From Actinomadura soli (GTDB lineage: Bacteria; Actinomycetota; Actinomycetes; Streptosporangiales; Streptosporangiaceae), in NCBI RefSeq assembly GCF_005889715.1, contig NZ_VCKW01000054.1, positions 1-38,343 on the forward strand: a DNA stretch of 38,343 bases, written 5' to 3'. Position 1 is the first letter of the stretch. Each line of letters opens with the position of its first letter. This document shows, in pieces, positions 1,554-38,343 of this stretch. The notes under the pieces are model-generated. The model ran no database searches. It saw only the letters and a list, made by a program, of their open reading frames with translations, and was not told the origin of the DNA. Made by a program: the position numbers and the translations under genes.

Positions 1554-1565
1554 TGCGTTTCCCGT

Positions 1566-3259: not shown

Positions 3260-3278
3260 ACGGCAGGGGGTGCGGCGG

Positions 3279-3310
3279 GGCACCGCGGCAGGGTGCGGTC
3301 GCGCGGTGCC
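3279..3310. repeat. 9-bp inverted repeat with 14-nt spacer
   Basis: GGCACCGCG at 3279-3287 is matched by CGCGGTGCC at 3302-3310. It lies about 280 bases past the stop of the ArsB/NhaD-type gene and just beyond the 22-bp repeat array. It could be a weak terminator or part of the array's protein-binding region. Confidence 0.35.
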
Positions 3311-3590
3311 CGGCGGGGCGGGCGGTAAATGGGATCCCGATGCCGTTGCTGACCGCGAGTAGCGGCCGGACCCGTCCGGCACGTGCCAGGTCTCCGCCGA
3401 GGGGCAGCCGCCACGGCAGTGTGGCCGAGGCATCACACCGCGAGTCCCCATCGCAGGGCTCGGGTCCTTCGCATCGATCAGGGCGGCGTAGTCGATGGGC
3501 GAGCGGACCGTGCGAGGCAATGCGCGGAGTTGCTCAGCGGTCCTGCCGGGACCTGTCGCGCAACTGGAGTCGATGGGTGGTCGAGCCGGG

Positions 3591-4871
3591 TCACAAATAC
3601 CGGAGCCAGAGGTAGGGGGTGGCGAGTGCGACCGTGACGAAGGTGACGACGAGGCCGTACTTGGTGAAATGCCAGAAGCTGATGGGAGTGCCGTTGCGGG
3701 CGGCGATGCCCAGGACGACGACATTGGCGCTGGCGCCGATGGCGGTGGCGTTGCCGCCCAGGTCGGCGCCGAGGGCTAGCGCCCACCACAGGACAGTGCC
3801 TTCTCCGCTGGGCTGCTGCTGGACCAGGTCGTCCACGATCGGGCTCATGGTGGCGACGTAGGGAATGTTGTCGATGATCGCCGACAGTCCGGCCGAGGCC
3901 CACAGCAGAAGCATGGTCGCCAAGCCGAGGCGGCCGTCGGTGGCGTCGGTGGCGGCGCGGGAGATGTCGGCGACGACGCCGGTCTCGACCAGGCCGCCGA
4001 CCATGATGAACAGGCCGGCGAAGAAGACCAGGGTGAGCCATTCGACTTCTTCCAGCGCCTGTTGGGTGGTGACCTTGGTGGCCGCTACCAGTACGCCCGC
4101 GCCCAGAAGCGCCACGACGGACGGTTCGTAGTGCAGAACGGGGTGCAGCACGAACGCGGCCATCACCAGGACGAGCACTGCCAGGCTCTGCCACAGCAAC
4201 CGCCGGTCGGTGATGGCCTCCTTTTCCTCCAGCGCCATGACTTCCGCGACGCGTTCGGGGTCGTAGACGAACGCACTGCGGAACAGCCAGCGGCACAGCA
4301 GGCAGAAGACCACCATCAGAATCACCACCAGCGGCGCCAGGTTGACCAGGAAGTCGTTGAACGACAGGTCTCCGCGGCTGGCGATGATGATGTTGGGCGG
4401 GTCACCGACGAGGGTCGCGGTTCCGCCGATGTTTGAGGCCATCACCTCGGCGATCAGGTACGGAGCGACCCTCAGCCCGAGCCGCTCGCAGACCAGGAAC
4501 GTCACCGGGGCGACCAGCAGCACGGTGGTGACATTGTCCAGCATCCCAGAGGCGACCGCGGTGATGACCGTGAGCATCACCATCAGCCGGTAGGGCCTGC
4601 CGCGGGCGCGTTTGGCGGCCCAGATCGCCACGTACTCGAACACACCGGTCTGCCGCAGTACCGAGACGATCACCATCATGCCCAGCAGCAGGAAGATGAC
4701 GTTCCAGTCGACGCCGGACTCGGTGGAGAAGAACGCCTTCTCGGCGTCGGTGATGTGGAACAGCAACATCAGACCGGCACCGCCGAGCGCTACAGCGGTG
4801 CGGTGCACCTTCTCTGATGCGATGAGGACGTACGCGGCGGCGAAGATGATGATGGCGGCTGCGGCGGCCAA
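3591..4871 (-). CDS. ArsB/NhaD-type (ion transporter superfamily) permease
   Basis: A polytopic membrane protein of 426 residues. Two related halves each carry a re-entrant motif typical of the ArsB/NhaD/SLC13 superfamily: near 105-160, [18 protein letters not shown] and [20 protein letters not shown]; near 330-395, [18 protein letters not shown] and [20 protein letters not shown]. This suggests an Na+/H+ antiporter or anion permease; the substrate is uncertain. The frame is closed just upstream by the stop of the preceding gene, so I use the TTG at 4871, which has GGAG a few bases ahead. It is the second gene of an operon, 12 bases after the CPA antiporter. Homologues are often found beside CPA antiporters and CBS proteins, as here. 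Confidence 0.88.
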
Positions 4872-6804: not shown

Positions 6805-7114
6805 CCGCCTGCGCTGATCAGGTGGGGCGCCAGGATCAGCGAGATGTCGGCGTCGCCGTCCATGCGGATCCGCACCCATTCCTCGGTGTCCGCGCTCACA
6901 CCCACTTCAGCGCCGGCGGCGGACGGCTCGCCTGAGCTGGCGGCGGTCAACTCGACCGTTGACGGGGCGATGAGTCGGCCGGCCCCTTTCGGGGTCGCTG
7001 CCGGCTTGGCTGAAGGTTTTGGGAAAACGTTGCGGCCCAGCTGTCGATATACGGGGAGCCCGTTCGTTGTGGGATGAGGGCGGGAAGGGCCCGCTCGGCA
7101 CGAGGAGCACCGTC
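6805..7114. other. Intergenic region with no supported gene
   Basis: The minus strand can be read as a plausible short peptide around 6810-6950, but the frame runs on into the CBS gene in antisense and has no recognised homology. The last ~100 bases should carry the promoter of the DGPF-protein/sigma-factor pair. No strong hairpin was seen after the CBS gene. Confidence 0.45.
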
Positions 7115-7477
7115 ATGACCAAGTACATGCTGTCGGCCCACAGCGTCGAGGGTCAGTCCCCGCCGCCGATGAGCCCGGAGGACGTCCAGCAGGTCACCAA
7201 ACAGGTGCTCGCGTTGGAGGGGGAGATGAAGGAGGCGGGCGTCTGGGTGTTCGGCGGGCGTCTGCACGGCCCCGACACCGCCACGGTCGTGCGCGCGTTG
7301 GGGCAGCAAGTGATCACGACAGACGGACCGTTCGTTGAAGCACGTGAGCATCTCGGCGGCTTGTACATCCTTGAGGCCGCCGATCTCGACGCGGCGCTGT
7401 CCTGGGCCGCGAAGGTCACCTCCATCGTTGGCGCGCCGATCGAGGTCCGGCCCTTCGCCGGCCTGCCCGAGGGGTGA
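7115..7477 (+). CDS. DGPF-domain (YCII-related) protein
   Basis: A 120-residue protein of the YCII/DGPF family, small alpha-beta proteins with a ferredoxin-like fold. The defining block TDGPFVEAREHLGGLYILEA is at about residues 69-88. The ATG at 7115 has GAGGAG seven bases ahead and an in-frame open region upstream that looks non-coding. Its stop overlaps the GTG start of the following sigma factor (GTGA), so the two are translationally coupled. DGPF proteins are the standard genetic partners of ECF42 sigma factors. Their biochemical role is not established; control of the sigma factor or a shared stress function are the usual proposals. Confidence 0.88.
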   Translation: MTKYMLSAHSVEGQSPPPMSPEDVQQVTKQVLALEGEMKEAGVWVFGGRLHGPDTATVVRALGQQVITTDGPFVEAREHLGGLYILEAADLDAALSWAAKVTSIVGAPIEVRPFAGLPEG

Positions 7478-8688
7478 TCATCGATGCGGCCTTCGTCGGC
7501 CGGATCTTCCGTGCGGAGTCCGGCCGGTCGATCGCTGCGCTGATCAGTGCCATCGGCGACATCGACCTGGCCGAGGACGCGGTGCAGGAGGCGTTCGCCA
7601 TCGCCCTGCGCAGGTGGCCTGCCGCCGGGGTGCCGCCCAACCCGGGTGCCTGGATCACCACCACCGCCCGCAACCATGCGATCGACCGGCTTCGCCGCCA
7701 GGCCAGGGAACGGCGGTTGCTCGGCGACGCCGCACTCTTGACGTCGCCGGCAAAAGAGGCGGATCACGTGTTCGATGACCGGCTTCGGTTGATCTTCACC
7801 TGCTGCCATCCCGCTCTGCCGACCGAGGGCCAGGTGGCGCTCACGCTGCGGCTCCTCGGCGGCATGTCGACCGCGGAGGTCGCACGCTCGTTCCTTGTGG
7901 CCGAGTCGGCCATGGCCCAGCGCCTTGTGCGCGCAAAACGAAAGATCAAGGCGGCTCGGATCCCGTACCGCGTTCCGGACGAGCACGAGCTGCCCGACCG
8001 GCTTCCCCCGGTGCTGTCCGTCGTTTACCTCATCTACACCAGCGGCGTGTCCGGCGGAGACCCGAGCCTGTGCGGAGAGGCGATCCGCCTGGCGCGGACG
8101 CTGGCGACTCTCATGCCCGACGAGCCCGAGGTCGCCGGGCTGCTCGCCCTGGTGCTGCTCAGCGAGTCACGGCGAGCGACGCGCACCCGTCCCGACGGCT
8201 CCCCTGTCCTGCTCGCCGAGCAGGACCGAAGCCGGTGGGACCGTGCGCTGATCGAGGAAGGACACGCACTGGTCCGCTGGTGCCTACGCCGCGACCGGCC
8301 AGGCACCTTCCAGCTCCAGGCCGCCATCCAGGCCGTCCACACCGACGCTGCGACGGCCGAGCGGACCGACTGGGCGCAGATCGTCACGCTCTATGACCAG
8401 TTGCTGACCATCGCCGCGACCCCTGTCGTGGCTCTGAACCGCGCTGTGGCGGTCGCCGAGATCCACGGTCCCGCTGCCGCCTTGGTCCTGGTCGAGGACC
8501 TGGACTTGGACGGTTATCACCTTTTCCATGCCACCCGCGCCGACCTCCTGAGCAGACTCGGCCGCGACCGTGAGGCCGCGACTGCCTACCAGCGCGCCGC
8601 AGCCCTGGCCCCCACCCCCGCCGAACGCGAATTCCTTCATCGTGGTGGCCGCACAGCACGATCATGCAAACATCGCCAGCAGCGGTGA
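7474..8688 (+). CDS. ECF42-type RNA polymerase sigma factor with C-terminal DUF6596/TPR-like extension
   Basis: A 404-residue sigma factor. Region 2 lies at about 10-75 (IDLAEDAVQEAFAIALRRWP, then NPGAWITTTARNHAIDRLRR). Region 4 lies at about 105-155 (FTCCHPALPTEGQVALTLRL, then TAEVARSFLVAESAMAQRLV). A long C-terminal half contains VLSVVYLIYTSGVSGGD, ALNRAVAVAEIHGPAAAL and a TPR-like end (RLGRDREAATAYQRAAAL). This architecture and the overlapping DGPF gene identify group ECF42. These lack a classical anti-sigma factor, and the extension is thought to modulate activity. The last ~17 residues after EREFLH differ from the usual end, perhaps a small 3' frameshift. Confidence 0.92.
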   Translation: MIIDAAFVGRIFRAESGRSIAALISAIGDIDLAEDAVQEAFAIALRRWPAAGVPPNPGAWITTTARNHAIDRLRRQARERRLLGDAALLTSPAKEADHVFDDRLRLIFTCCHPALPTEGQVALTLRLLGGMSTAEVARSFLVAESAMAQRLVRAKRKIKAARIPYRVPDEHELPDRLPPVLSVVYLIYTSGVSGGDPSLCGEAIRLARTLATLMPDEPEVAGLLALVLLSESRRATRTRPDGSPVLLAEQDRSRWDRALIEEGHALVRWCLRRDRPGTFQLQAAIQAVHTDAATAERTDWAQIVTLYDQLLTIAATPVVALNRAVAVAEIHGPAAALVLVEDLDLDGYHLFHATRADLLSRLGRDREAATAYQRAAALAPTPAEREFLHRGGRTARSCKHRQQR

Positions 8689-9016
8689 TCCTCACGCCGC
8701 TCCCTCAGGCGCTCGCCGGCCGGCCTCATCGCTGACCTGCCCGGCCTGCCGCCGGTCCGGTACCGCCGCTCCTGGGACCATCTGCGGGTGCTGAGCCGGT
8801 TGGGAGCCGATGCGCCGGCCCCCATTCGCCGGATCATCGCGCATCGCACCCGATGACCCCGCAGCGAGCGCACGAACTGCTTCTACGTCGACGGCTCAAG
8901 TTCACAGAGCCCTGCATTCGCCCCTCGGCCCGTGTCCCGCGAGGAACCCTCCATCGCGGCGAAGCGGGGCTGTCACCGGGGCAGCTGGATCGAGCGGGCG
9001 GGCTGCGGGTGCGTTG
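8689..9016. other. Intergenic region, possible decayed coding piece
   Basis: A plus-strand stretch near 8718-8855 reads plausibly as protein (GLPPVRYRRSWDHLRVLSRL) but lacks a start in context and is not recognised. The region separates two convergent genes. I see no clear terminator hairpin. Confidence 0.35.
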
Positions 9017-9056
9017 CTAGCAGGTCGTCGGGGTGGCTAGCAGGTCGTCGGGGTGG
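9017..9056. repeat. Perfect 20-bp tandem duplication over a stop codon
   Basis: CTAGCAGGTCGTCGGGGTGG occurs twice, head to tail, at 9017-9036 and 9037-9056. The second copy encodes the last residues (ATTPTTC) and TAG stop of the minus-strand TfoX-like gene. The first copy lies just past that stop. Slipped-strand duplication is the simplest origin. Confidence 0.85.
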
Positions 9057-9360
9057 TGGCGAATGCTCGGGCTTCGTCCAGCAGTCTCTGCCAGAGCGGC
9101 TGGTCGGGGGCGGGCAGGGCGACCCATTCGCGGAAGGTCCGTCCCGCCGGGGCGAACGGTTCACCGACGCCTTGGGCGATGAGTTGCGCGACCTGTTCCT
9201 GCGGCAGCTTGACCACCAACGTCTGGTTGCGCGTATCCAGTGCGGCGAAGAGGCGTCCGTGGTGGCGGACGCATGGCAGGCCCATCATGGTCGACCGGGT
9301 GACGGCGGGATCGGTGAGCGTTGGCTCGACCAGGTCCCAGAACAGCTCTTCTGGTGTCAT
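9037..9360 (-). CDS. Small TfoX/YjbR-like protein
   Basis: A 107-residue soluble protein. The pattern TRSTMMGLPCVRHHGRLFAA, then DTRNQTLVVKLPQEQVAQLI and FAPAGRTFREWVALP, fits the small alpha-beta TfoX N-terminal/MmcQ-YjbR-like proteins common in actinomycetes. Their function is poorly known, and a role in competence should not be assumed. The ATG at 9360 has a weak GAGG well upstream. It is divergent from the ECF sigma factor gene at 9429 and shares a 68-base promoter region with it. Such proteins are often near SnoaL-type ECF genes, but that association is only suggested here. Confidence 0.7.
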   Translation of the reverse strand: MTPEELFWDLVEPTLTDPAVTRSTMMGLPCVRHHGRLFAALDTRNQTLVVKLPQEQVAQLIAQGVGEPFAPAGRTFREWVALPAPDQPLWQRLLDEARAFATTPTTC

Positions 9361-9416
9361 GTGTTGTTTGATCCTCGAAGGTCGGCTGATTCATCGGTCG
9401 TGTCGTAGCCGACGGC

Positions 9417-9422
9417 TAGTCT
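9417..9422 (+). promoter_or_regulatory. Candidate -10 box for a leaderless ECF sigma factor transcript
   Basis: TAGTCT, preceded by CGGC as at 6316, sits exactly six bases before the ATG at 9429. No Shine-Dalgarno sequence precedes that ATG, which supports a leaderless message starting at or next to the A of ATG. Confidence 0.42.
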
Positions 9423-9428
9423 GCCGAC

Positions 9429-10391
9429 ATGGATGCTGCTGAGACGGCGGACGCCGATGTCGCGGGGCTGCTGGCCGCCGCGCGCTCCGGTGACGAGGTG
9501 GCGTTCGAGGCGCTGCTGGCGCCGCATCGGCGGGCCCTGCATCTGCACTGTTATCGCATGCTCGGTTCGCTGACCGATGCCGAGGAGGCGATTCAGGACA
9601 CCATGCTGCGGGCGTGGCGCAGCCTGCACACCTATCAGGCGCGTGCTCCGCTGCGTCATTGGCTGTTCCGGATCGCCACCACGACGTGTCTGAAGAGCAT
9701 CGAACGGCGCAACCGTACGCCCGCCGTGCTGGCGGAGGTGGGGCATCTGCAGCCCTATCCCGACCGGCTGCTGGACGATCTCGACCCCGTCCGGGTGGTG
9801 GAGGAACGTGAGGCGGTGGCGCTGGCCTTCGTCGCGGCTCTGCAACTGCTGCCCGCCACGCAGCGTGCGGTGGTGTTGCTGCGCGAGGTGTTGTGCTGGA
9901 GCGCGGCCGAGGTGGCCGAGTACCTGGGCAGCACCGTCCCGGCGGTCAACAGTGCCCTGCAGCGTGGCCGTGCCACCCTGCGCTTCCACCACGAGCCGCG
10001 GGAGCGTGTCCTGAGCGCGTACGAGCGGGAGATCCTGCGGCGTTTCATCGAGTCCTGGCAGCGCCGCGACCTCGACGCGCTGGCCGCGGTGCTCCGGGAG
10101 GACGCCGTCCTGCGAATGCCGCCCGAAACCGTCGAGATCACCGGGCGCGCGGCGGTCGTCGGGTTCTTCGCCACCCAGCCCGCCGGTGGGCGCCTGGAGG
10201 AGATCCGGCTGGTGGAGACCAGGGCCAACGGGCAACCGGCACTGGCCGCCTACCTGCCCGACGTCACCGGCACCTGTCTCGGCTACGGCATCATGGTGCT
10301 GACCATCGGCCCGGCGGGCATCGCCGAGATCACCGGCTTCCCCAACGCCGAGATCTTCGCCTGGTTCGGCCTGCCGAGAACCGTCCGCTGA
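9429..10391 (+). CDS. ECF sigma factor with C-terminal SnoaL-like domain (SigG/SigX5 type, TIGR02960-like)
   Basis: A 320-residue sigma factor. Region 2 is at about 25-95 (LHCYRMLGSLTDAEEAIQDT, then APLRHWLFRIATTTCLKSIE). Region 4 is at about 135-185 (LLPATQRAVVLLREVLCWSA, then AEVAEYLGSTVPAVNSALQR). A SnoaL/NTF2-like fold occupies about 200-320, with IESWQRRDLDALAAVLREDA at its start and a terminal FAWFGLP. In this class the SnoaL domain replaces an anti-sigma factor and probably gates activity, perhaps through a small ligand. The neighbour 110 bases downstream is a SnoaL-DinB fusion on the same strand and is the likely target. A paralogue is at 32579. Confidence 0.92.
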   Translation: MDAAETADADVAGLLAAARSGDEVAFEALLAPHRRALHLHCYRMLGSLTDAEEAIQDTMLRAWRSLHTYQARAPLRHWLFRIATTTCLKSIERRNRTPAVLAEVGHLQPYPDRLLDDLDPVRVVEEREAVALAFVAALQLLPATQRAVVLLREVLCWSAAEVAEYLGSTVPAVNSALQRGRATLRFHHEPRERVLSAYEREILRRFIESWQRRDLDALAAVLREDAVLRMPPETVEITGRAAVVGFFATQPAGGRLEEIRLVETRANGQPALAAYLPDVTGTCLGYGIMVLTIGPAGIAEITGFPNAEIFAWFGLPRTVR

Positions 10392-10500
10392 GCGTCGGGG
10401 CGGCGGCCGATTCCGCCGACACCGATGAGTCGCCGCTTTTTCCGGGATCTATCAGGGGTGCATGGCCGCGCGCCGCGGCCCGACGCCTCTTGGAGAGATC

Positions 10501-11433
10501 ATGGACGCTCTTGCCATCGCCGGGCGGTACTACGACGCCTGGATCCACCACGCCGGTGACATGACCGGCGTCCCGCTGGCCGCCGACTTCACCTTCACCG
10601 GCCCCGTCGCCGGCTTCGACAGCGCGGCCGGCTACCGGGCCATGGCCGCGCAGGCGGGTGCGGCCGTGCGGAGCTTCCGCGTCCGTCACCAGTTCGCCAC
10701 CGACCGGATGGTCTGCTCGATCGTCGACTGGGAGATGGACCCGCTGCCCGGCACGCTCACCGCCGCCGAACTGCTGCACGTCCGGGACGGGCAGATCGTC
10801 CAGGGTGAACTGATCTACGACGCCGAGGACCTGCGCCGCGTCATGGCCGCCGCGACCGACCCGCTGCGGCTGCTGCGCCGCGGCTACGACGACACGGCCG
10901 AGCTGATCGAGCGGGTCACCGCGGACGGCTGGGCCGCCCCGGGCCCCTGCACCGGATGGACGGTGCGGCAGACCGCCAATCACCTGACCGGCGGGCTGCT
11001 GCTGATCACCCGGGTCGCCGAAGGGACTCCGCCCGACCCGGCCGAAATCGACGCCCAAGCCCAGGCCGACATCGACCACCTGGGCACCGACCCCGCCGGT
11101 GCGCTCCGCGCGGTGGCCGGGCGCTCACTGGTGGCCCTCGGGGAACCCGGGGTGCTGCAACGGGAGTTCCCCTTCCTCGGCGGACTGAGCAGCGGCGTGA
11201 CGCTCGCCTCCATCTGCCTGCTCGAAACGCTGGTCCACGGATGGGACATCGCCCAGGGCGCCGAGATCGATCATCCGGCCGACGAGGAGGTCGTGGACGC
11301 GGTCTGGGCCTACGCCCGGCACGCCATCGGTGACGACCAGCGCCGTGCCGGCATGTTCGCCGAACCGCTCCCCATCACCCCGGCCGCCGACACCTTCGTC
11401 GCACTCCTGGCCCACCTGGGCCGACGCGCCTAG
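10501..11433 (+). CDS. Fusion of SnoaL-like domain and mycothiol-dependent maleylpyruvate isomerase-like (DinB fold) domain
   Basis: A 310-residue cytosolic protein with two parts. Residues 1-120 are a SnoaL/NTF2-like domain (IAGRYYDAWIHHAGDMTG, then VCSIVDWEMDPLPG and ELLHVRDGQIVQGELIYDAE). Residues ~125-310 are a TIGR03086-type DinB/MDMPI domain (WAAPGPCTGWTVRQTANHL, then ETLVHGWDIAQG). The histidines of NHL and VHGWD are the usual metal ligands. Such proteins are linked to mycothiol-dependent transfer or isomerisation. The ATG at 10501 has GGAGA four bases ahead; the upstream in-frame extension is unlikely. It follows the SnoaL-type sigma factor and ends on a CTAG shared with the convergent gene. 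Confidence 0.87.
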   Translation: MDALAIAGRYYDAWIHHAGDMTGVPLAADFTFTGPVAGFDSAAGYRAMAAQAGAAVRSFRVRHQFATDRMVCSIVDWEMDPLPGTLTAAELLHVRDGQIVQGELIYDAEDLRRVMAAATDPLRLLRRGYDDTAELIERVTADGWAAPGPCTGWTVRQTANHLTGGLLLITRVAEGTPPDPAEIDAQAQADIDHLGTDPAGALRAVAGRSLVALGEPGVLQREFPFLGGLSSGVTLASICLLETLVHGWDIAQGAEIDHPADEEVVDAVWAYARHAIGDDQRRAGMFAEPLPITPAADTFVALLAHLGRRA

Positions 11434-11963: not shown

Positions 11964-12355
11964 AATGGCCGGGCGGGAGCTTCGGTAGCGGCATGAGACG
12001 TCCGGACTTTGTCCTGTTGCCGCTCTGGAAGACCGTGCGCAGGGATTCGAGACCGGGACCCGGCCGACGCGACCCCTGGCGGGGGCAAGGCGGCTTCGAC
12101 GCATCGCCTCCTGCCTCAAGGCCGGTGGTAGCGACCACCCCTGGGGTCATGAAGCGGCACGCAGTCAACCATTCGAACGGAAAGACCGATGAGGATCGGA
12201 CGTAAAGCAGCCGCCGCAGGATGTGGTCCTCACGGACGTAGAGGTTCTTGGGCCGGTCCGGGTCAGAGCGCGAGGCACTGCTGTGGCCGTGCCGGCACCG
12301 GTACGCCGCCCGGTTGTTGACCCGGCACAGCTCCAGCCGCCGCCTGCAGATTCCG
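11964..12355. other. Gene-poor stretch at the start of the scar region
   Basis: No supported gene. Frames here have mixed composition and no recognisable motif on either strand. It joins the truncated methyltransferase promoter to the DinB and DUF2637 fragments and is probably decayed or rearranged DNA. Confidence 0.45.
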
Positions 12356-12470
12356 CAGGCAGATGGAGGCGAGCGCCGCGCCGCCGCTCAGTCCGCCGAG
12401 GAAGGGGAACTTCCGTTGCAGCGCACCGGGTTCGCCGAGGGCGGCCAGTGAGCGCTCGGCCACCGCGCGG
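12356..12470 (-). pseudogene. Fragment of a second SnoaL-DinB/MDMPI-like gene
   Basis: The minus strand reads RAVAERSLAALGEPGALQRK then FPFLGGLSGGAALASICLR. This matches residues ~200-240 of the fusion protein at 10501 (SLVALGEPGVLQREFPFLGG, SSGVTLASICL) at protein level and closely at DNA level. Similarity begins abruptly at 12470 and ends abruptly near 12356, just before the metal-binding VHGWD block. It is a ~38-codon relic of a paralogue. Confidence 0.8.
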
Positions 12471-12530
12471 AACGCGCTGATCGGTGCTTACAAGCTGCTA
12501 AGAAGCAGATCAGGCATACCGCTGTGGAAG
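12471..12530 (+). pseudogene. Fragment of a DUF2637 gene, frame-shifted
   Basis: The plus strand reads ALIGAYKLL, then after a one-base frame change KQIRHTAVEEL. This corresponds to ALIGAYELLMRQIRHTSVRR of the DUF2637 remnant at 135-914. It starts at 12471-12473, immediately after the DinB fragment ends at 12470, so the junction between two unrelated relics is resolved almost to the base. Confidence 0.7.
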
Positions 12531-17031: not shown

Positions 17032-17049
17032 CCCATCGGATCACGTGGA

Positions 17050-17147
17050 GAGCCGGATGCTCGGCCAACGGGCACGTCCGGTTCGGCGGGCGGGGACGAG
17101 GAGACCGACGCTGGAAACAGCGCACGGCGTCTCGTCCCCGACCCAAC
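17050..17147 (+). ncRNA. Group II intron domains V and VI
   Basis: Domain V (17050-17084) starts GAGCCGGATGC and ends ACGTCCGGTTC, with outer-stem pairing and a variant loop; it is 35 nt against the usual 34. Domain VI is a long hairpin: GGG-CGGGGACGAG (17088-17100) pairs with CTCGTCCCCG (17131-17140) and CCC (17142-17144). The A at 17141 is left unpaired, seven bases from the 3' end, exactly where the lariat branch-point adenosine belongs. This strongly supports a splicing-competent end. Confidence 0.9.
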
Positions 17148-26266: not shown

Positions 26267-27271
26267 TCAGAACTCTTCGCGCAGCCTGGGCAGGATCTCC
26301 CGTCCGTAGAGCTCGAAGAACCGGTCCTGGTCGGGGCCGGGGGAGTGGAAGACGAGGTGGTCGAAGCCGAGATCCACGTAGGCCCTGATCCGCTCGACGT
26401 GCTCGTCCGGGTCGGTCGAGACGATGAAACGTCGAGCGGCCTGCTCCAGCGGAAGTTCGTCGGCGAGCCGCTGGAGCTCGACCGGGTCGTCGATCCCTGC
26501 CTTCTGCTCGGCGCTGAGACCGAGTGCCGCCCAGAACCGCGTGGCCAGCGTCGCGGTCTCCAAGTCGGAATCGAAGGACACCTTCACTTCGATCATCTTC
26601 TCCAAATCGTCAGGCGATCGGCCGGCCGACTCCGCGCCGGTGTGGATCGCGGGCAGGAGGGTGTCGGTGTAGAGCGCCGGGTCCTTGCCCGAAGTGGTGA
26701 TCCATCCGTCACCGGCCCTTCCGGCGAAGCGGGTCGCGGCCGGGCCGGACGAGGCGAGCCAGATCGGGATCTCCTTCTCCGGCCGGTCGTAGATCGTGGC
26801 GTTGGCCGTGCGGTAGTACTCGCCCTCGAACGTCACGCGTTCGTCGCGCCACACCGCGCGGATCAGCTCGACCGCCTCGCGCAATCGGGCGAGCCGTTCC
26901 TTGCCGCTCGGCCACTCGATGCCCAAGGGCGCCTCGTTCATCGCCTCGCCGCTGCCGAGGCCTAGGACGACCCGCCCGGGATACAGGCTCCCCAGGGTGG
27001 CGAAGGCTTGGGCGATGACCGCCGGGTGGTAGCGGAACGTCGGAGTTAGCACGGAGGTCCCGAGCACGATCCGTTCCGTACACGCGCCTAGGGCTCCCAG
27101 CAGCGGCAGCACGGCCGGAGCGTGCCCGCCGTCGTGCCGCCACGGCTGGAGATGGTCGGACAGGAATACCGAGTCGAAGCCGTGCTGTTCGGCCAGTGCC
27201 CCGTACTCGAGAAGCTCCGTGGGCCCGAACTGCTCGCTGGACGCCTTGTAACCCAGCTTCAACGTCCGCAT
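26267..27271 (-). CDS. fgd: F420-dependent glucose-6-phosphate dehydrogenase
   Basis: Oxidises glucose-6-phosphate to 6-phosphogluconolactone while reducing cofactor F420, supplying F420H2. The 334-residue protein begins MRTLKLGYKASSEQFGPTEL, the hallmark N-terminus of Fgd. The residues known in M. tuberculosis FGD1 fall at the same numbers: Asp39, His40 and Trp44 in FLSDHLQPWRHDGG, and Glu109 in GLGSGEAMNEAPLG. The luciferase-like TIM barrel is complete. It is the second gene of a pair: its ATG is five bases after the stop of an F420-type reductase that could use the F420H2 it makes. Confidence 0.95.
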   Translation of the reverse strand: MRTLKLGYKASSEQFGPTELLEYGALAEQHGFDSVFLSDHLQPWRHDGGHAPAVLPLLGALGACTERIVLGTSVLTPTFRYHPAVIAQAFATLGSLYPGRVVLGLGSGEAMNEAPLGIEWPSGKERLARLREAVELIRAVWRDERVTFEGEYYRTANATIYDRPEKEIPIWLASSGPAATRFAGRAGDGWITTSGKDPALYTDTLLPAIHTGAESAGRSPDDLEKMIEVKVSFDSDLETATLATRFWAALGLSAEQKAGIDDPVELQRLADELPLEQAARRFIVSTDPDEHVERIRAYVDLGFDHLVFHSPGPDQDRFFELYGREILPRLREEF

Positions 27272-27276
27272 GCCGC

Positions 27277-28248
27277 TTACCGCCTGAATTCGTGGGCGCC
27301 GTCGGCGGTCGGGTAGAGGAACTCGGACGCGAAACGACGCACCGTGTTGGGGTCGCGCGCATCGAGGAAGCCGACCAGCAACTCCTGCACGCCTGCGTCC
27401 TCGTAGGCCGCCAGACGCTTGCGGATCGTATCGACGGTCCCGATGAGGCCGTACGACGCCACGTCATCAGGGAAGACCTGGGGAGCCCACGGGGGCACCG
27501 CCGCGCGTGCCTCCTCATCGCTGTCGGCGATGATGCAGAGTCCGGTGGACGTACGCGTGATCTCTTCGCTGGGCCGTTCGACATCCTCGCAATGGGCGCG
27601 CAGGATGGCGTCCTTGCGCCGGAACTCGTCCGGCGAGGTCTGAATGTTGCAGGCGTCTCCGAACTCGGCCACCGTCCGCAGCGTGACCTTCTCCCCACTT
27701 CCGGCGATCATCATCGGCACGTGGGGCGACTGCACTCCCTTCGGCTCGTTGATAGCCCCGTGGACCTGGTAGTACTCGCCCTCGAACGTCGTCTCCGGCT
27801 CGGTCCACATCGACCGGATGATCTGGACGGCCTCACGCAACCTGGCCAGGCGTTCACGCACGCCGGGGAACTCGTAGCCGTACGAGACGTACTCGGCCTC
27901 GTACCATCCGGCTCCGATGCCGAACGTGAAGCGCCCCTGTGACAGCACGTCCAGTGTGGAGGCCATCTTCGCCTGAAGCGCGGGACTGCGGTAGCTGACC
28001 CCGGTGACCATCTGGCCGATGCGCACCCGACGCGTCTCCCGCGCCAGCGCGGCCAGCGTCGTCCAGACCTCGAACGTAGGTGCCGGGGCGGGCGGGAGCG
28101 TCACGAAGTGATCGGGCGCCCACACCGTCTCGTAGCCGCTCTCGTCCGCCGCGTGCGCCAGCTCGATGATGGTGTCGAACGCGTCAACGGGATCGTGCTC
28201 GGCGAATTCGTGCCCGAACCCGGTGGGCAGGTAGAGGCTGATCTTCAT
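27277..28248 (-). CDS. LLM-class F420-dependent oxidoreductase
   Basis: A 323-residue luciferase-like TIM-barrel enzyme. Typical blocks are ELAHAADESGYETVWAPDHF, RRVRIGQMVTGVSYRSPALQ, LSQGRFTFGIGAGWYEAEY and HVPMMIAGSGEKVTLRTVAE. These enzymes use F420H2 (sometimes FMN) to reduce or oxidise varied substrates, which cannot be predicted here. The ATG at 28248 has GGAAAGGGA ahead. It is co-transcribed with fgd, so F420 is the likely cofactor. Part of the leader (13 bp) is repeated in tandem just upstream of the start. Confidence 0.9.
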   Translation of the reverse strand: MKISLYLPTGFGHEFAEHDPVDAFDTIIELAHAADESGYETVWAPDHFVTLPPAPAPTFEVWTTLAALARETRRVRIGQMVTGVSYRSPALQAKMASTLDVLSQGRFTFGIGAGWYEAEYVSYGYEFPGVRERLARLREAVQIIRSMWTEPETTFEGEYYQVHGAINEPKGVQSPHVPMMIAGSGEKVTLRTVAEFGDACNIQTSPDEFRRKDAILRAHCEDVERPSEEITRTSTGLCIIADSDEEARAAVPPWAPQVFPDDVASYGLIGTVDTIRKRLAAYEDAGVQELLVGFLDARDPNTVRRFASEFLYPTADGAHEFRR

Positions 28249-28279
28249 GGTCGCAGATCCCTTTCCTGGTCGCAGATCC
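28248..28279. repeat. 13-bp direct repeat in the leader of the F420 operon
   Basis: TGGTCGCAGATCC occurs at 28248-28260 and 28267-28279, a 19-base period, covering the ribosome-binding region and running up to the start codon of the reductase gene. Confidence 0.7.
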
Positions 28280-28479
28280 GATGTAGGAGGGAGAACAACC
28301 CCATCCGCCAATGAAGACTCGCGACCTCATGCAAAGGAATCGGACGACGCAGGCGGTCTCGCGGGCATAGAACCGTGGCAGGGCTCCATGGCCGCCGATT
28401 CCTCAGAGATAACCGTGGCCCGGCAGGTTTCTCCCGTTCAGTGGCGGCTGCGCGTCCGATGCCCGTCGAACGCGTCCAA

Positions 28480-32496: not shown

Positions 32497-32578
32497 TCAT
32501 GGACGGCGGAACGATTCCTTTGCCGATCGGCGGTGGTCTCTATGGGGGGACACGCTGAAAGCTGGTCAAGGAGCGCAA

Positions 32579-33547
32579 ATGGAGAATGCCGAAGAATTCG
32601 CCGATCTGGTGGAGCCGTTCCGCCGTGAGCTTCTGGCGCACTGCTATCGCATGATGGGAACCCTGGACGAGGCCGAGGACCTCGTCCAGGAGACCTTTCT
32701 GCGCGCCTGGCGGTCCTACGAGGCGTTCGAGGGACGCTCCTCGCTGCGTGTTTGGCTGTACAAGATCGCCACTAACACCTGCCTGTCCGCGAGGGAGAGA
32801 CGCGCCAGGCGTCCATTGCCCAGTGGTCTGGGGCCACCGAGCGATGATCCATTCCAAGCGCCGGAGGCCCCCGGCAGCACGGTGGTGTGGTTGCAGCCGA
32901 TTCCCGACGCAATAGTGACCTCTGGCGGCCCCGCCGACCCCGCCGACATCGTGTCCTCACGAGAGAAGCTGCGGCTCGCGTTGACGGCCAGCCTGCAACA
33001 TCTGGCACCACGGCAGCGAGCGGTCTTCATCCTGCGCGAGGTGCTGGACTTTCCGGCGGCCGAGGTGGCCCGGATGCTGGACATCTCCGTGGCCGCGGTC
33101 AAGAGCCTGCTCCAGCGTGCACGCGCGGGCATGGCACTGGCAGCCCCGGAAGTCGCCGCGGAGCCCACCGAACCGCAGGGCCGTGCGCTGCTGGAGCAGT
33201 ACATGACCGCCTTCGAGAACTCCGACCTGGACGCCCTGGAACGCGCGCTGCGCAAGGACGCCGCGCTGGAGATGGTCGGCTACACGACATGGTTCTCCGG
33301 CTTGGAGACCTGCCTGCGCTACATCGACCAGGTGATCGGCCCACCGGGCACTTGGCGGATGATGCCCACCCGAGCCAACGGGCAGCCCGCCGCCGGCGCC
33401 TTTCTACGCAGAGCCGACGGCGCCTACGACGCGTTCGGCATCGCCGTCCTGACAGTGACCTCCGACGGCATCAGCCGCATCGTCCTGTTCGCGGAGCCCG
33501 GTCTGCTCCCCAGGTTCGGCCTGCCCTCCAGCTTGCCGTCGAGCTGA
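32579..33547 (+). CDS. ECF sigma factor with C-terminal SnoaL-like domain (SigG/SigX5 type), second copy
   Basis: A 322-residue sigma factor. Region 2 has LLAHCYRMMGTLDEAEDLVQ then SSLRVWLYKIATNTCLSARE. Region 4 has LAPRQRAVFILREVLDFPAA then EVARMLDISVAAVKSLLQRA. The SnoaL-like part (about 200-320) has LLEQYMTAFENSDLDALERA and ends RFGLPSSLPSS. It is a diverged paralogue of the gene at 9429: both share TRANGQPA and a final FGLP. The ATG at 32579 has AAGGAG seven bases ahead. It converges with a DinB-type gene, whose stop is two bases away; a SnoaL-family gene follows. Confidence 0.92.
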   Translation: MENAEEFADLVEPFRRELLAHCYRMMGTLDEAEDLVQETFLRAWRSYEAFEGRSSLRVWLYKIATNTCLSARERRARRPLPSGLGPPSDDPFQAPEAPGSTVVWLQPIPDAIVTSGGPADPADIVSSREKLRLALTASLQHLAPRQRAVFILREVLDFPAAEVARMLDISVAAVKSLLQRARAGMALAAPEVAAEPTEPQGRALLEQYMTAFENSDLDALERALRKDAALEMVGYTTWFSGLETCLRYIDQVIGPPGTWRMMPTRANGQPAAGAFLRRADGAYDAFGIAVLTVTSDGISRIVLFAEPGLLPRFGLPSSLPSS

Positions 33548-33549
33548 CC

Positions 33550-34134
33550 TCAGGCCTTACGAACCGTCCCTCCCAGCAGGGCGATCAGCCGCTCTCCGGG
33601 AGCAGCCCTCGCTCTCGTCGACACCCTTGGTCCGTACCGCAAGTGATCGACCCCCTCACCCGTGGAGAGCAGCGGGAGGACCTCCAGGAGATGCCTGCCG
33701 AGCACCGGCGGTATGGGTTCTTCCCGACGACAAGCCCACCCGATCTCCCACCCATGGACGGTCAACTCCAGAGCGGCGGCGGTCACCAGGACCCCACGCA
33801 GTAGGCGCCGGTCGTCGATCACCACGCGGCTGTCGGGGCCCGCGTTCGTTCCGGCCGCGGCGAGCAGGCGGCGGGCACGGTCGTGGAAGGACGCGACCAA
33901 GCCCTCGGGAGGCTCAGGATGGCCGCGTTCCGGGTGGCCGATGACCGCTTCGGTGAGGCCCTCCAGGAAAACGTCGATGGACTCGTTCAGATGACGCAAT
34001 AGGGCCTCCACATCCCAGCCCTGGCGCGGTGTCGGTTTAGCGAGGTCCTGTGGTCGTACCTGGCGAAGGCAGTCGCCCGTGTAATCGACGGCTGCCTCCG
34101 CAAGGCCGAGGGGGTTGTTGATCCGCATGAACAT
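33550..34134 (-). CDS. TIGR03086-like mycothiol/DinB-fold protein
   Basis: A 194-residue protein of the MDMPI/DinB-like superfamily. The N-terminal block AEAAVDYTGDCLRQVRPQDL with PTPRQGWDVEALLRHLNESI carries the first metal-ligand histidine. ELTVHGWEIGWACRR carries the second conserved His block. It corresponds to the C-terminal half of the fusion protein at 10501. Members use mycothiol or act as metal-binding thiol transferases; the exact reaction is unknown. It converges with the second SnoaL-type sigma factor and diverges from a free SnoaL gene. Confidence 0.8.
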   Translation of the reverse strand: MFMRINNPLGLAEAAVDYTGDCLRQVRPQDLAKPTPRQGWDVEALLRHLNESIDVFLEGLTEAVIGHPERGHPEPPEGLVASFHDRARRLLAAAGTNAGPDSRVVIDDRRLLRGVLVTAAALELTVHGWEIGWACRREEPIPPVLGRHLLEVLPLLSTGEGVDHLRYGPRVSTRARAAPGERLIALLGGTVRKA

Positions 34135-34368
34135 GAAGACCCCACCGACACCCGGAAGGAACCGGAACCGGGATCAAGATCAGACGACCTGAACCATGCC
34201 GATTCGCCCTCCACCTCGCACAACTACGCACCAGAGCGGCTTGTCAGAACATTCGCCCAGCCCGGTTAACGATTCCTTTCTGGCTTTCGGCGGTCTCCAT
34301 GTATAGGAGGCTCCGCGGCGCGGCGCCGCAGCAGCAGCGCCAGGAAACATGACGCCAAGAGGAATGTG

Positions 34369-34782
34369 ATGACCGGCCACAACACGACACATGTCGATGC
34401 CGAACGCGCCGTACGCGCTGTGCTCGATGAGGTGTATGCCGCCTGGGCCCAGGGCGACGCGGACGCCTTCGTCGTGCCGTACGCAGAGACCGCCACCGCG
34501 ACTCTGCCCGGCACCTATCTGCCCAGCAAAGAAGCAATCCGCGACACCATGGCCCGCCTCTTCACCGGCGCGTTCGAGGGCTCCAAAGGCATCCACAAGG
34601 TGCGGAACATTCGATTCGTTTGCTCCGACCTGGCCATCGTGAGCAGCCAAGGGGCGGTGGTCTTCGCCGGCCAGACCGAGCCGGGCAGCTCGAGCCTGGC
34701 GCTAGAGACATGGGTGCTGTCCGAAGAGGACGGTGCCTGGCGAGTTCAAGCCTTCCACAGCACCCCAGAACACACGGGCTGA
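34369..34782 (+). CDS. SnoaL/SgcJ-EcaC-like NTF2-fold protein
   Basis: A 137-residue NTF2-fold protein: RAVRAVLDEVYAAWAQGDAD, AFVVPYAETATATLPGTYLP and a closing LETWVLSEEDGAWRVQAFHS. Such proteins bind or convert small hydrophobic ligands. Some are tied to antibiotic pathways, but no pathway is present here. The ATG at 34369 (GTG at 34366 also possible) has AAGAGG six bases ahead. It diverges from the DinB-type gene across ~234 bases. Together they mirror the two halves of the fusion protein at 10501. Confidence 0.85.
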   Translation: MTGHNTTHVDAERAVRAVLDEVYAAWAQGDADAFVVPYAETATATLPGTYLPSKEAIRDTMARLFTGAFEGSKGIHKVRNIRFVCSDLAIVSSQGAVVFAGQTEPGSSSLALETWVLSEEDGAWRVQAFHSTPEHTG

Positions 34783-35340
34783 GTGAGAACAGAGAAAGAA
34801 ACAACGCCGAGCAATGAGTCAGAGGCAGTCAAGAAGCACTGGTCCACGGTCCGCGCGGCCTTTGGGTGGCCAGACGCCAAGCATCCGCCGACCGATGAAG
34901 CCTTGGGGCAACCTGACAGCCGAACCCCGGCCAGCCGACTTTATCGAAACTACTGCGGCCGGCCTGCCCGCGCGCTGGGCACTCCCCAAGTCAATCACCT
35001 AGGCCCCCCGAGCGTCGCCTGCAGCCCCTCGTTTGCGGCTGGTGACACGTCCGTTAACGGCACGTCCGCCGTGAGTTCAGCGCTGCTGAAGGCTCCTCAA
35101 CAGGAATTCGCGGCGTTTCGAACGCTCAAGCCCGCGAACTGGGCGGGTTCAAAGAGGGTAGCGCCTCCTGGAGGGGGTGTTCCTAGAGCGGTGTCATCAC
35201 AGGGAAACGAGGATGTGAGCCGATGCTGGCGGTGGCCGATGTCGGCCGTGGGGTCAGTCGTTGGTGCGGTCGGGTGGGGGGTCGGATCGCTGTTCGTAGG
35301 GTCGCAGGATGGAGGTCCCTGCCCCTTCATTTCAGCCTGA
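34783..35340. other. Unassigned stretch left of the IS3 element
   Basis: A plus-strand frame stays open through most of it (34783-35340), but its composition is mixed and no motif or good ribosome-binding site is present. It stops at the IS3 end. I do not support a gene. Some of it may be flanking sequence cut by the insertion. Confidence 0.4.
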
Positions 35341-35369
35341 GGTGAAGCCCACCGGGTTCGGTGAAGTCC
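35341..35369 (+). repeat. Left inverted repeat of the IS3 element
   Basis: 29 bp, starts GGTGAAGCCCACCGGGTTC and ends GGTGAAGTCC. It contains an internal near-repeat of GGTGAAG. Confidence 0.85.
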
Positions 35370-35414
35370 TTCAAGCCAGTCATGATCTTGGCTGGTAGGA
35401 GGAGAATCGCCGCG

Positions 35415-36410
35415 ATGTCAGCACCACGCAAGTACCCCCAGGAGCTCCGTGACCGGGCCGTCCGGCTGGCCATGGAGTCCGACCGTCCCATCGCTCAGAT
35501 CGCGGCCGATCTGGGCATCCACCGCGAAGCCCTGCGTATCTGGGTGCGCCAGGCCCAGGCCGACGCCGGCCAGCGGTCCGAGCAGCTGACCACCGTCGAG
35601 CGGGAGGAGCTCAAGCGGCTGCGCAAGGAGAACAACGAGCTCAAGCGCGCCAACGAGATCCTCAAAGCGGCCTCAGCGCTTTTCGCCGCCGAGCTCGGCC
35701 AGCCCCGGACGAAGTGGTCATGGTGGTCGATCACCTGCGTGACCGCTTCGGGGCCCGTGCCGGTGTGCCGCGTCCTGGACCTGTGCCCGGGCACCTACTA
35801 CGACCGCAAACGCCGGCCACCGTCCGCCCGCGCCCAGCGCGATGCGGTACTGATCGAGCAGATCAGCGACGTTCATCAGGCCAGTTACGGCACCTATGGC
35901 GCCTACCGCGTGCCCAAGCAGCTGCGCCGCCAGGGCGTTCAGGTCGCGCGGTGCACGGTGGAACGGCTGATGCGCGCCCACGGCCTGCAGGGCGTGCACC
36001 GCCGGGACCGGCAGCGCACCACCACACCCGGCGAGACAGCATCACGGCCGCCGGACCTGGTCAACCGGCGGTTCACCGCGGACCGGCCCGACCAGCTATG
36101 GCCAGCGGACATCACCAGCCTCCGCTACACCACCCGGCTGACCGACCTGGGCGTCGTCGCCTCGGTCGGGTCGGTCGCCGACTCCCACGACAACGCGATG
36201 GCCGAGTCGCTGAACGCCACGTTCAAGACCGAGCTGATCCACCGCCGCTCCTGGCGCACCCGCGACCAGGTCGAGTACGCCATCGTCGAATGGGTCGGCT
36301 GGTACAACCACCGCCGTCTGCACACCGCCATCGGCGACGTCCCACCCGTCGAGTACGAGATGGCGTACTACCGTTCGATCAACACACCAGCGCCGACCGG
36401 CGCCAGGTAA
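35415..36410 (+). pseudogene. IS3-family transposase, OrfA fused to an internally deleted OrfB
   Basis: OrfA is intact: PRKYPQELRDRAVRLAMESD, the HTH block IAQIAADLGIHREALRIWVR and a leucine-zipper-like KRLRKENNELKRANEILKAA. The OrfB start frame (MVVDHLRDRFG) is in +1 phase at 35729, but a small indel near 35750 puts the rest of OrfB in the OrfA frame. OrfB keeps YGTYGAYRVPKQLRRQGVQV and the first Asp (WPADIT). It then jumps straight to SLRYTTRLTDLGVVASVGSV: about 60 codons with the second catalytic Asp are missing. The Glu region (DNAMAESLNATFKTELI) remains. It cannot catalyse transposition. The ATG at 35415 has AGGAGGAG ahead. Confidence 0.88.
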
Positions 36411-36413
36411 ACC

Positions 36414-36442
36414 GGACTTCACCAAACCCGGTGGGCTTCACC
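36414..36442 (-). repeat. Right inverted repeat of the IS3 element
   Basis: 29 bp, the reverse complement of the left repeat with one mismatch (T for C in GGGTTTGG). It begins three bases after the transposase stop codon. Confidence 0.85.
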
Positions 36443-36812: not shown

Positions 36813-38343
36813 TCAGGTCGGGTCCCCTTCCAGATCGGTTCGCTTCTGCAGCTCTCCGCGTGCCCACATCTGGCGGGCGGCGTCGAAGCACTGGTACGGC
36901 GCGTTCACCTGGTCGGCGAGTTGCTGGCCCTTGGCGTTGTTGATTTCGTCGGCCTTGTTGTCCGCTTCGGTGCCCGGCCTCGCCACTTCGTGTGCGTTGC
37001 CGAGCTGTGTGGCGAAGTCCGCGCCGAACGCCTTCTTCAGGTAGCACTGCCACAGCGCGTGGCGGACCGCGTTCTGCTCCTCGGCGTCCGTCATATGCCT
37101 GACTTCGAAATAGACGAGAGCGTAGACGAACAGCACCCGGTCCGCGGGGATGTTCGTGTCTCGCACGACGTTGTACTCCTCCTCGGAGAAGTTCTTCCCG
37201 AACCATTCCACATATTCCGCGAGTTGGGTGAAAGGATAACCTATGGTTTGCAGGCGGTTCGCCAGGTCGACCAGCCTCTGCGCCAGTCTCGTGATGAATT
37301 CATGGTAGATCCGCGTTACCATCGAAGGCGGAGCCGACGGGGACGAGTCCCACATGAACCTCGAAACCCAGGCTGCGTCCTCGGGTTTCAACCCCCCGTA
37401 CATCGCCGCCGTCAACCCCGCCACGGTCACCGGCTGTGGAGAGCTGCGCAGCCTGTACCACACTGCCGCCAGGAGACCTATTCCGGCGGCGAACAGTAGA
37501 GTGGTGGTGGCGATGAACCGACGGTTCAGTTGTGCCGTCGAATCCATTGTGGGGTACACGTCCTGGGACGGAACGGTGTTACACACACACCAGAATCCCA
37601 CGCCGGCGGGTACCTCCATGGTCATGGTCCAGTCGCCTGGCGTGGGGTTCCTGATGACGAGACACTGAATCGATGAACCCGACATGATCACCAGTTGGTT
37701 GTCGTCCTGGATGTCGTGGTCGTATACGGTTCCGTCAGGGCCGGTGGTCGTCATCACCGCGCCGTCCGGGAATTCGGCGTTGTCGACACTCCTGGTGAGG
37801 ACAACATAGAGATACGGTGCCCCCTCCTCGACGTTCAACGTGTGGCTCGAAGTGTGCCTCTGGTCGGGGCCGTCCGTGTTGCTGCATTGACAGTAGGCGT
37901 ATGAATTCGTACCGTGCAGGTCGAACCAGGTGGAACGGATGGCCGGCAGCGTCAGAGTCGAACAGAAGAGCCCGTTGGATGTCGACTGGTGGGTCTCCAC
38001 TGCCGACTGCGCGTTGCACGTGACCTTCGGAACCAGGCCATCGCCGTAATGCTGACTCTGCTCGTCATTCCATGTAATCATGTCTGCGTCGATTTGACCG
38101 GTGCCGCGATACCAGAGCGTGTTGGCGCCTTGTGACTGGTGTACTTCCACGACCAGCCCGTCGTTGGTGATGGCGACGGAGGGGGTAATTCCTTGGTCGT
38201 ACTCGATGCTTCCGCCCCAGTCGATCGTGTCGCCGTTGACCCTGCCGACGTGATACCAGAGGGTGCTGGCGCCTTGTGACTGGTGTACTTCCACGACCAG
38301 CCCGTCGTTGGTGATGGCGACGGAGGGGGTGACTCCTTGGTCG
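36813..38343 (-). CDS. Repeat-containing membrane-anchored protein with a DUF6973-like C-terminal domain, N-terminus beyond the window
   Basis: About 509 residues are visible; the frame runs off the right edge. It starts with 48-residue repeats (TPSVAITNDGLVVEVHQSQG, then ANTLWYRG), with a third degenerate copy (VETHQS). Such VEVHQS/LWYR repeats resemble lectin-like beta-propeller blades. A Cys-containing beta-rich region follows, then one membrane helix (ATTTLLFAAGIGLLAAVWYR). The ~200-residue C-terminal domain ends with AVRHALWQCYLKKAFG, LGNAHEVARPGTEADNKADE and INNAKGQQLADQ. This RHA-W, HE, D, NN-G pattern resembles DUF6973, found in some secreted or polymorphic-toxin proteins. Function unknown; a surface receptor or toxin-like protein is possible. 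Confidence 0.78.
   Translation of the reverse strand, partial: DQGVTPSVAITNDGLVVEVHQSQGASTLWYHVGRVNGDTIDWGGSIEYDQGITPSVAITNDGLVVEVHQSQGANTLWYRGTGQIDADMITWNDEQSQHYGDGLVPKVTCNAQSAVETHQSTSNGLFCSTLTLPAIRSTWFDLHGTNSYAYCQCSNTDGPDQRHTSSHTLNVEEGAPYLYVVLTRSVDNAEFPDGAVMTTTGPDGTVYDHDIQDDNQLVIMSGSSIQCLVIRNPTPGDWTMTMEVPAGVGFWCVCNTVPSQDVYPTMDSTAQLNRRFIATTTLLFAAGIGLLAAVWYRLRSSPQPVTVAGLTAAMYGGLKPEDAAWVSRFMWDSSPSAPPSMVTRIYHEFITRLAQRLVDLANRLQTIGYPFTQLAEYVEWFGKNFSEEEYNVVRDTNIPADRVLFVYALVYFEVRHMTDAEEQNAVRHALWQCYLKKAFGADFATQLGNAHEVARPGTEADNKADEINNAKGQQLADQVNAPYQCFDAARQMWARGELQKRTDLEGDPT
38056..38343 (-). repeat. Two tandem ~144-bp repeats in the large membrane protein gene
   Basis: The segment GGCGCCTTGTGACTGGTGTA recurs at exactly 144-base spacing (48 codons), near 38124 and 38268. 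About 65 bases around each are nearly identical. The second copy runs into the right edge, so more copies probably follow. Such near-identity at DNA level suggests recent duplication or gene conversion. Confidence 0.8.

Follow-up and report, generated by a model that had tools for sequence, protein, structure and literature searches.

The stretch of Actinomadura soli DNA analyzed here (contig NZ_VCKW01000054.1, 38,343 nucleotides; the window) contains a sigma factor gene, sig33, a DinB-superfamily gene, din33, and a gene for a free SnoaL-fold protein, sno34. A first-pass annotation had described these as three neighbouring genes. Profile searches confirmed the families, but din33 lies on the minus strand, which rules out a sigma-DinB-SnoaL operon at 32579-34782. 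It is convergent (stop to stop) with sig33 and divergent (back to back) from sno34. Coordinates are collected in Table 1.

Genes of the locus

Sigma regions 2 and 4 are both matched in the sig33 product, which scores 398 bits against PRK08241 (cut-off 240) and 341.9 bits against TIGR02960 (cut-off 264.75). TIGR02960 proteins presumably correspond to the ECF56 group, with which they are equated here. The sigma2-sigma4 linker is long, with sigma2 ending at residue 78 and sigma4 starting at residue 133, and the C-terminal tail matches SnoaL_2 at 22.3 bits (E 2.1e-4), below the Pfam cut-off of 27. The closest solved chain, 7qh5_A, aligns over residues 5-313 (E 1.6e-58). The sequences YVGPWLPEP (linker) and NPDKL (tail), given as ECF41 features in PMC7730460, are both absent from the sig33 translation, as judged by reading.

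The din33 product scores 46.1 bits against MDMPI_N (cut-off 24.2), 50.8 bits against TIGR03083 (cut-off 50) and 74.3 bits against TIGR03086, under the cut-off of 83; no Pfam match to MDMPI_C was found at E 0.001. A search against the sequences of solved structures returned only three matches, all to unrelated molecules (E 0.036 to 0.22), and a profile built from an alignment of din33 relatives returned none. The fold was therefore sought via a predicted model, which adopts a DinB-type helical bundle with a conserved His-Glu-His set. The best Foldseek E-value of this model was 1.5e-3, with no match at 0.001. Identity to the mycothiol-dependent maleylpyruvate isomerase (PDB 2nsf) and to DinB-family thiol S-transferases (PMC4360819) is 13% and 9%, respectively. 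The DinB/MDMPI protein is probably a thiol- or metal-dependent enzyme of a detoxification type.

The sno34 product matches TIGR02246 at 92.5 bits (cut-off 33.95) and the SgcJ chains 4i4k and 4ovm with E-values of 4e-20 and 3e-18. Behind it lie a hydrolase gene remnant and an IS3-like element, whose transposase (35361-36410; HTH_Tnp_1, HTH_21, rve) is enclosed by 29-bp inverted ends at 35341-35369 and 36414-36442.

A second sigma factor gene of this type, sig9, is found elsewhere in the window (PRK08241 344.5 bits, TIGR02960 291.5 bits), and its tail matches SnoaL_2 at 39.1 bits (cut-off 27). The gene that follows, fus10, encodes SnoaL and DinB parts in one polypeptide, as the first-pass annotation had recognized at 10501. 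About 4 kb from sig33 lies a pair of luciferase-like monooxygenase genes; translation of the first more probably begins at the in-frame ATG at 28248 than at the listed TTG.

Table 1 Features of the window. Promoter-like sites are given with their scores under the cleaned and the first matrix.
Feature	Position	Strand	Description
sig33	32579..33547	+	TIGR02960/PRK08241 sigma factor (ECF56/SigG-type), SnoaL-like C-terminal tail
din33	33550..34134	-	MDMPI_N / TIGR03086-like DinB-superfamily protein
sno34	34366..34782	+	Free SnoaL-fold protein, SgcJ/EcaC family
Alpha/beta hydrolase gene remnant	34810..34990	+	Two frames; covers residues 3-61 of 297; intact relative is Abhydrolase_3
IS3-like element	35341-36442		Directly past hydrolase remnant
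Promoter-like site of sig33	32512..32543	+	CGATTCCTTT-N13-GGTCTCTAT; 23.4 cleaned, 24.2 first
Promoter-like site of sno34	34270..34300	+	CGATTCCTTT-N12-GGTCTCCAT; 15.5 cleaned, 16.9 first
Promoter-like site of monooxygenase pair	28311..28342	-	CGATTCCTTT-N13-AGTCTTCAT; 14.4 cleaned, 18.0 first
Promoter-like site of fus10	10423..10454	+	CGATGAGTCG-N13-GATCTATCA; 9.4 cleaned, 10.4 first; weak singly
Promoter-like site of din33	34133..34164	-	CGGTTCCTTC-N13-GGTCTTCAT; overlaps din33 start; 8.7 cleaned, 12.6 first; weak singly
Luciferase-like monooxygenase, first	27277..28311	-	PF00296, 187.7 bits
Luciferase-like monooxygenase, second	26267..27271	-	PF00296, 228 bits; 5 bp behind first
sig9	9429..10391	+	Second TIGR02960 sigma factor of the window
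fus10	10462..11433	+	SnoaL_2 + TIGR03086 fusion, downstream of sig9
fus10 fragment	12355..12475	-	121 bp, 91% identity, inverted

Gene linkage and a shared promoter-like motif

Linkage was examined in 40 genomes, comprising the source genome (G000; 9.04 Mb in 622 contigs) and 39 relatives (G007 and so on). An MDMPI-type gene lies within 1.5 kb of 19 of the 132 sigma genes listed in this census, against a chance expectation of ~0.9 computed from 20 TIGR03086 matches in 9.04 Mb. For 15 of the 19 it lies directly downstream, at a distance of at most 118 bp. In the source genome, 4 of the 13 TIGR02960 genes directly adjoin an MDMPI-type gene. A broader set of named loci was obtained by scanning named genomes with an alignment of proteins of the din33 clade and taking the best 80 of 338. 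The sigma gene is directly upstream on the same strand in 47 of these 80, convergent in 2 and absent within 1.5 kb in 31. The convergent layout, as in the window, occurs in Qaidamihabitans albus and Prauserella muralis. Genes in the named and relative loci were called by a crude rule based on third-codon-position G+C content (GC3), their starts are rough, and the windows used for motif scoring extend into reading frames. The earlier proposals that the sigma and the DinB-type gene belong together, and do so beyond chance, are thus borne out by linkage recurring in many genomes; a similar promoter-like motif at both places in the window also agrees, weakly in the cases of din33 and fus10.

Two further arrangements were seen in the census. 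Contig C378 of the source genome (bases 81-4199, locus L037) has two TIGR02960 sigma genes within 4.2 kb, with one MDMPI-type gene and other genes between them. A neighbour cluster that resembles protocatechuate dioxygenase by its sequence lies beside 17 sigma genes in 17 genomes of the genus of the window (for example L102), and one large ECF56 subclade may thus adjoin aromatic-acid genes.

The motif was derived from the 49 sigma-linked loci, which gave 44 usable regions upstream of the sigma gene; L211 (off the contig end) and L217, L236, L275 and L276 (without the anchor motif) were dropped. CGAT-N19-GGTC is present in 28 of the 44 (0.36 in shuffles). The fuller form preceding sigma-DinB pairs, CGATGAGTTT-N13-GGTCTGTAC, reaches at least 15 matching positions out of 19 in 31 of 44 regions and in 1 of 880 shuffled ones. 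With a threshold of 13 positions the counts are 35 of 44 and 33 of 880, and 33 of those 35 regions share one spacing. Two matrices were used. The first comprises the sigma upstream regions of 45 same-strand and 2 convergent loci; the cleaned matrix, whose figures are the more reliable, comprises 29 same-strand regions with no window sequence and was used to scan the window in both orientations.

The five best window matches of the cleaned matrix precede sig33, sno34, the monooxygenase pair, fus10 and din33, and the first matrix selects the same five. The sixth-best match (7.2) falls inside the transposase region. Four of the five lie within 150 bp before sig33, din33, sno34 and fus10, for which the chance is ~2e-8 (first matrix). 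Sixty shuffled windows gave a mean of 0.25 matches scoring at least 12, with a maximum of 18.8. The sites of sig33, sno34 and the monooxygenase pair stand out by number and position, while those of din33 and fus10 are weak singly.

A DinB/MDMPI target gene would be expected to have the motif ahead of whichever transcript carries it. Its placement among relatives follows this pattern. Of the 47 same-strand loci, only 2 have the motif directly ahead of the MDMPI gene, whereas both convergent relatives have it before the sigma gene and before the MDMPI gene (22.2 and 33.6). In the loci without a sigma gene nearby, none of which contributed to the matrix, the motif precedes the MDMPI gene in 28 of 31 and 2 of the 245 other genes there. 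Over all 80 loci, a count with the first matrix, limited to called genes and a tighter range (-200 to +60), found the motif at 21 of the 29 MDMPI genes lacking a sigma neighbour and at 27 of 689 others. Among the further genes of the linked loci, 26 of 377 score at least 12 (first matrix). The motif-bearing genes include those for MFS, glyoxalase-like, DoxX, RibD_C and DUF899 proteins, which may be true targets. In the source genome, the motif also marks the 5' end of two further MDMPI-type genes that lack a sigma gene beside them: one on C45 (L196, near 3934; 21.2) and one on C592 (L199, near 3926; 14.8), both scored with the first matrix.

The variant of the motif goes with the sigma subclade. 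Three of the window sites share the -35 form CGATTCCTTT; that of din33 has CGGTTCCTTC and fits the sig33-type variant. The four matches to the pattern CGRTTCCTTY-N12/13-RGTCTYYA in the 9.04-Mb genome all fall within the window. CGATTCCTTT-N12/13-GGTCTVYA has six matches in the 40 genomes (two here, two in G012, one in G013 and one in G016), each near a sigma gene of the six-row sig33 clade. Such a site precedes a hydrolase-sigma pair in G012 (contig C31) and G013, and a zinc-dependent dehydrogenase frame (Pfam) followed by the sigma gene in G016; a one-base variant of it precedes a SnoaL-hydrolase-sigma row in G007. The relatives of sig9 have another form, CGATGARTYG-N13-GATC, located before fus10, before a standalone MDMPI gene on C183 of the source genome and before a standalone SnoaL gene in G034. 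One further match to this pattern lies in G161, at a place other than the sig9 locus of that genome; G020 has none.

A candidate ECF56-type regulon and its alternatives

The gene families, their linkage, the shared motif, the rule of its placement and the variant tracking the sigma subclade were all computed, and together they point to a small, self-activating local regulon of the ECF56/SigG type, whose conserved target would be the DinB/MDMPI protein. The probability of this reading is put at about two in three. The sigma factor would read the motif, its tail would sense a ligand and din33 would act as an enzyme. More specifically, sig33, probably controlled via its own SnoaL-like tail, would recognize CGRTTCCTTY-N12/13-RGTCTYYAT and activate its own gene, din33 (from its own promoter on the opposite strand), sno34 (formerly with the hydrolase gene behind it) and the monooxygenase pair. 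In other actinobacteria, sigma and DinB/MDMPI genes of this kind are often arranged as a single operon downstream of such a predicted promoter, and a lone DinB/MDMPI gene bears the promoter itself; either arrangement would thus make the DinB/MDMPI protein the conserved target.

Known systems offer partial precedents. In ECF41 sigma factors, as in the reading proposed here, a regulatory domain is fused to the C-terminus, an enzyme gene adjoins in varying order and orientation, a bipartite promoter precedes the transcripts and the targets are few (PMC3426412). The partners differ, being a carboxymuconolactone decarboxylase, oxidoreductase or epimerase (COE) in ECF41 and a DinB/MDMPI protein here, and so does the motif, TGTCACA..CGTC in ECF41 and CGATGAGTTT or CGATTCCTTT..GGTC here (PMC3426412). 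The SigG1-RsfG pair of Streptomyces tsukubaensis (ECF56) shares with the present locus a long sigma2-sigma4 linker (53 aa in SigG1) and a gene directly downstream (PMC7730460); SigG1 has a SnoaL_2 tail, and that of sig33 is SnoaL-like, with a SnoaL_2 score below the cut-off. A comparable locus is that of SiwR, a stress regulator of Mycobacterium smegmatis that controls the DinB-superfamily genes next to it, joined in some genomes by a glyoxalase-like gene; SiwR, however, is a WYL transcription factor accompanied by DinB_2 and DUF664 proteins, rather than a sigma factor with MDMPI_N (PMC10693628). No paper in the literature searched was found to connect DinB/MDMPI genes to sigma factors of the ECF56 group or to others with SnoaL tails, although a mention is possible in the ECF re-classification (10.1093/nar/gkaa1229), and a search for CGATGAGTTT with 'sigma' returned solely papers unrelated by title.

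Several observations weigh against such a regulon. The din33 and fus10 sites score 8.7 and 9.4, and shuffled windows reach 18.8. The source genome has no exact match to the generic motif and none to CGATGASTTYN{12,13}GGTCNGTA. The upstream region of sig9 lacks the motif (-5.3, first matrix), as does, in clear form, that of the SnoaL gene of G161, and just 22 of the 132 listed census sigma genes score >8 (first matrix). MDMPI linkage is a minority trait in that census (19 of 132), and the 49 linked loci among the 80 represent a biased rate, since 7 of the 8 proteins in the query alignment are sigma-linked. The narrow variant patterns were framed after the sites had been seen, so that only their absence elsewhere counts. 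Finally, SigG1 is reported to have the motif CCG-N17-CCCTCC and no clear chromatin immunoprecipitation peak at its own promoter (PMC7730460). This is not the motif found here, with its CGATGAGTTT/CGATTCCTTT and GGTC-type boxes; SigG1 is one ECF56 member and does not define the group.

The best surviving alternative, which we consider unlikely, is that the DinB/MDMPI protein is not an enzyme target but a regulatory partner of the sigma factor, anti-sigma-like or a co-sensor, made together with it and binding it. RsfG, the product of the gene downstream of SigG1, does bind SigG1 (PMC7730460), and operon coupling is tight, with 4-bp overlaps in 6 of the 47 same-strand loci. A Cys at din33 position 135, eight residues past the conserved H127, is likewise shared by all 46 sigma-linked relatives examined and by 7 of the 31 unlinked ones; its role may be in redox or metal chemistry, or it may reflect mere ancestry. 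In contrast, the triad positions are retained in linked and unlinked relatives alike (these residue counts omit linked loci L204, L247 and L256, 3 of the 49, as their contigs were already represented). Moreover, the motif before 28 of 31 sigma-less MDMPI genes suits a target, and RsfG is reported to have no Pfam domain, unlike din33.

Somewhat less probable again is that the motif is read by another sigma factor or regulator, the ECF56 genes being merely among its targets. The assignment of the motif to sig33 is sequence-based, and both the different motif reported for SigG1 (PMC7730460) and the lack of the motif at most census sigma genes would fit this view. It accounts poorly for the -35 variant tracking the sigma subclade and for the motif's place next to most of the linked sigma genes (at least 15 positions matched in 31 of 44).

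A chance neighbourhood in a gene-rich, rearranged contig is very improbable: the convergent layout, the adjoining IS3-like element and hydrolase remnant and the minority status of the linkage would permit it, but 19 linked sigma genes against ~0.9 expected, and two other genera in which the convergent arrangement recurs along with both sites, argue otherwise. Least credible of all is the first-pass proposal that one SnoaL-DinB-sigma unit was duplicated to give two or three copies, since the same domain kinds at both places and one matrix recognizing both kinds of site are outweighed by differing sigma and DinB subclades, dissimilar SnoaL parts and a supposed third copy at 12356 that is just an inverted fus10 fragment with no sigma or SnoaL part.

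The trees behind this rejection were built from 130 of the 132 TIGR02960-type sigma factors of the 40 genomes (two short ones were left out) and from DinB domains. In the sigma tree, sig33 groups with genes of G007, G012 and G013 (support 95) within a 68-row branch (100), and sig9 groups with the C183 gene of the source genome and one G034 gene (100), outside that branch; the two proteins are 39% identical, their tails aligning at 34%. A 52-row tree of MDMPI domains (matches of at least 25 bits, envelope ~110 residues; without L001-L033 and L054-L056) places din33 in an eight-row clade (99/79), seven members of which are sigma-linked, and pairs the fus10 domain with the C183 protein (99/96), itself sigma-linked. 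These two domains are 25% identical (E 5e-4). In a 129-row tree, din33, on a long branch, stays in an 85-row clade (96) with its named relatives. The two sigma factors and the two DinB domains thus lie in different subclades, and the pairing is not congruent with joint duplication. BLAST gave no match between sno34 and the SnoaL half of fus10, which also rules out sno34 as the split form of that half. Of two outcomes that the first-pass annotation had named as refuting its view, unrelated SnoaL domains were observed, by BLAST, and a loss of linkage in other genomes was not.

A local regulon with a DinB/MDMPI target might be part of something broader, though this extension is tentative and, on balance, doubtful. 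ECF56-type sigma factors could be a widespread actinobacterial one-protein switch for chemical stress. A reactive metabolite or xenobiotic would be bound by the SnoaL tail, the sigma factor would turn on the operon to which it belongs, and the DinB/MDMPI enzyme made from that operon would clear the bound compound, using mycothiol or a metal, and thereby turn the switch off. Free or fused SnoaL proteins would bind or pass on the same ligand, and fus10 would combine binding and removal in one chain. According to a review of non-canonical ECF factors, what SnoaL-type tails do in regulation, in ECF56 and in related groups, has yet to be clarified (PMC8999054). With its predicted promoter, conserved target gene and narrow regulon, the present system would make the function of these tails testable, and it places the many TIGR03086-type proteins of actinobacteria, most of them uncharacterised, in a regulatory context.

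Fused and split forms, and other features

The relation between fused and split SnoaL and DinB parts, which had been drawn between the two loci of the window, does exist, but among the relatives of sig9. Among 296 genomes of the class, 3 were found to encode a sig9-type sigma factor (E 1e-75 or better). In G034 and G161 a separate SnoaL gene, divergent from the sig9-type sigma gene, shows 61-69% identity to the first half of fus10. On C183 of the source genome it is the MDMPI part that stands alone, convergent with its sigma gene and with 46-47% identity to the second half. By alignment, fus10 is an end-to-end fusion. The argument from fusion thus holds for the kin of sig9, with parts lying beyond the window. 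As for sig33, G007 has a sno34-like gene (66%) before the sigma gene, and G007, G012 and G013 have a hydrolase gene there. Judged from these arrangements, the locus in the window is a rearranged, partly eroded form of a gene set that is tidier elsewhere.

The surroundings of sig9 (7019-11433) consist of a YCII gene, an ECF42-type sigma gene (DUF6596), a YjbR-like gene on the minus strand, sig9 and fus10, so that two kinds of tail-bearing sigma factors adjoin. Parts of this stretch recur together in G161, where the YCII- and YjbR-like frames were judged by eye, and G020 retains a decayed copy of its YCII-ECF42-sig9-fus10 portion. Elsewhere in the window, a group II intron match was detected at 17048-17147 (43.4 bits, gathering score 40), and a 95-bp direct repeat, 95% identical, occupies 38105-38199 and 38249-38343, the second copy reaching the end of the window.

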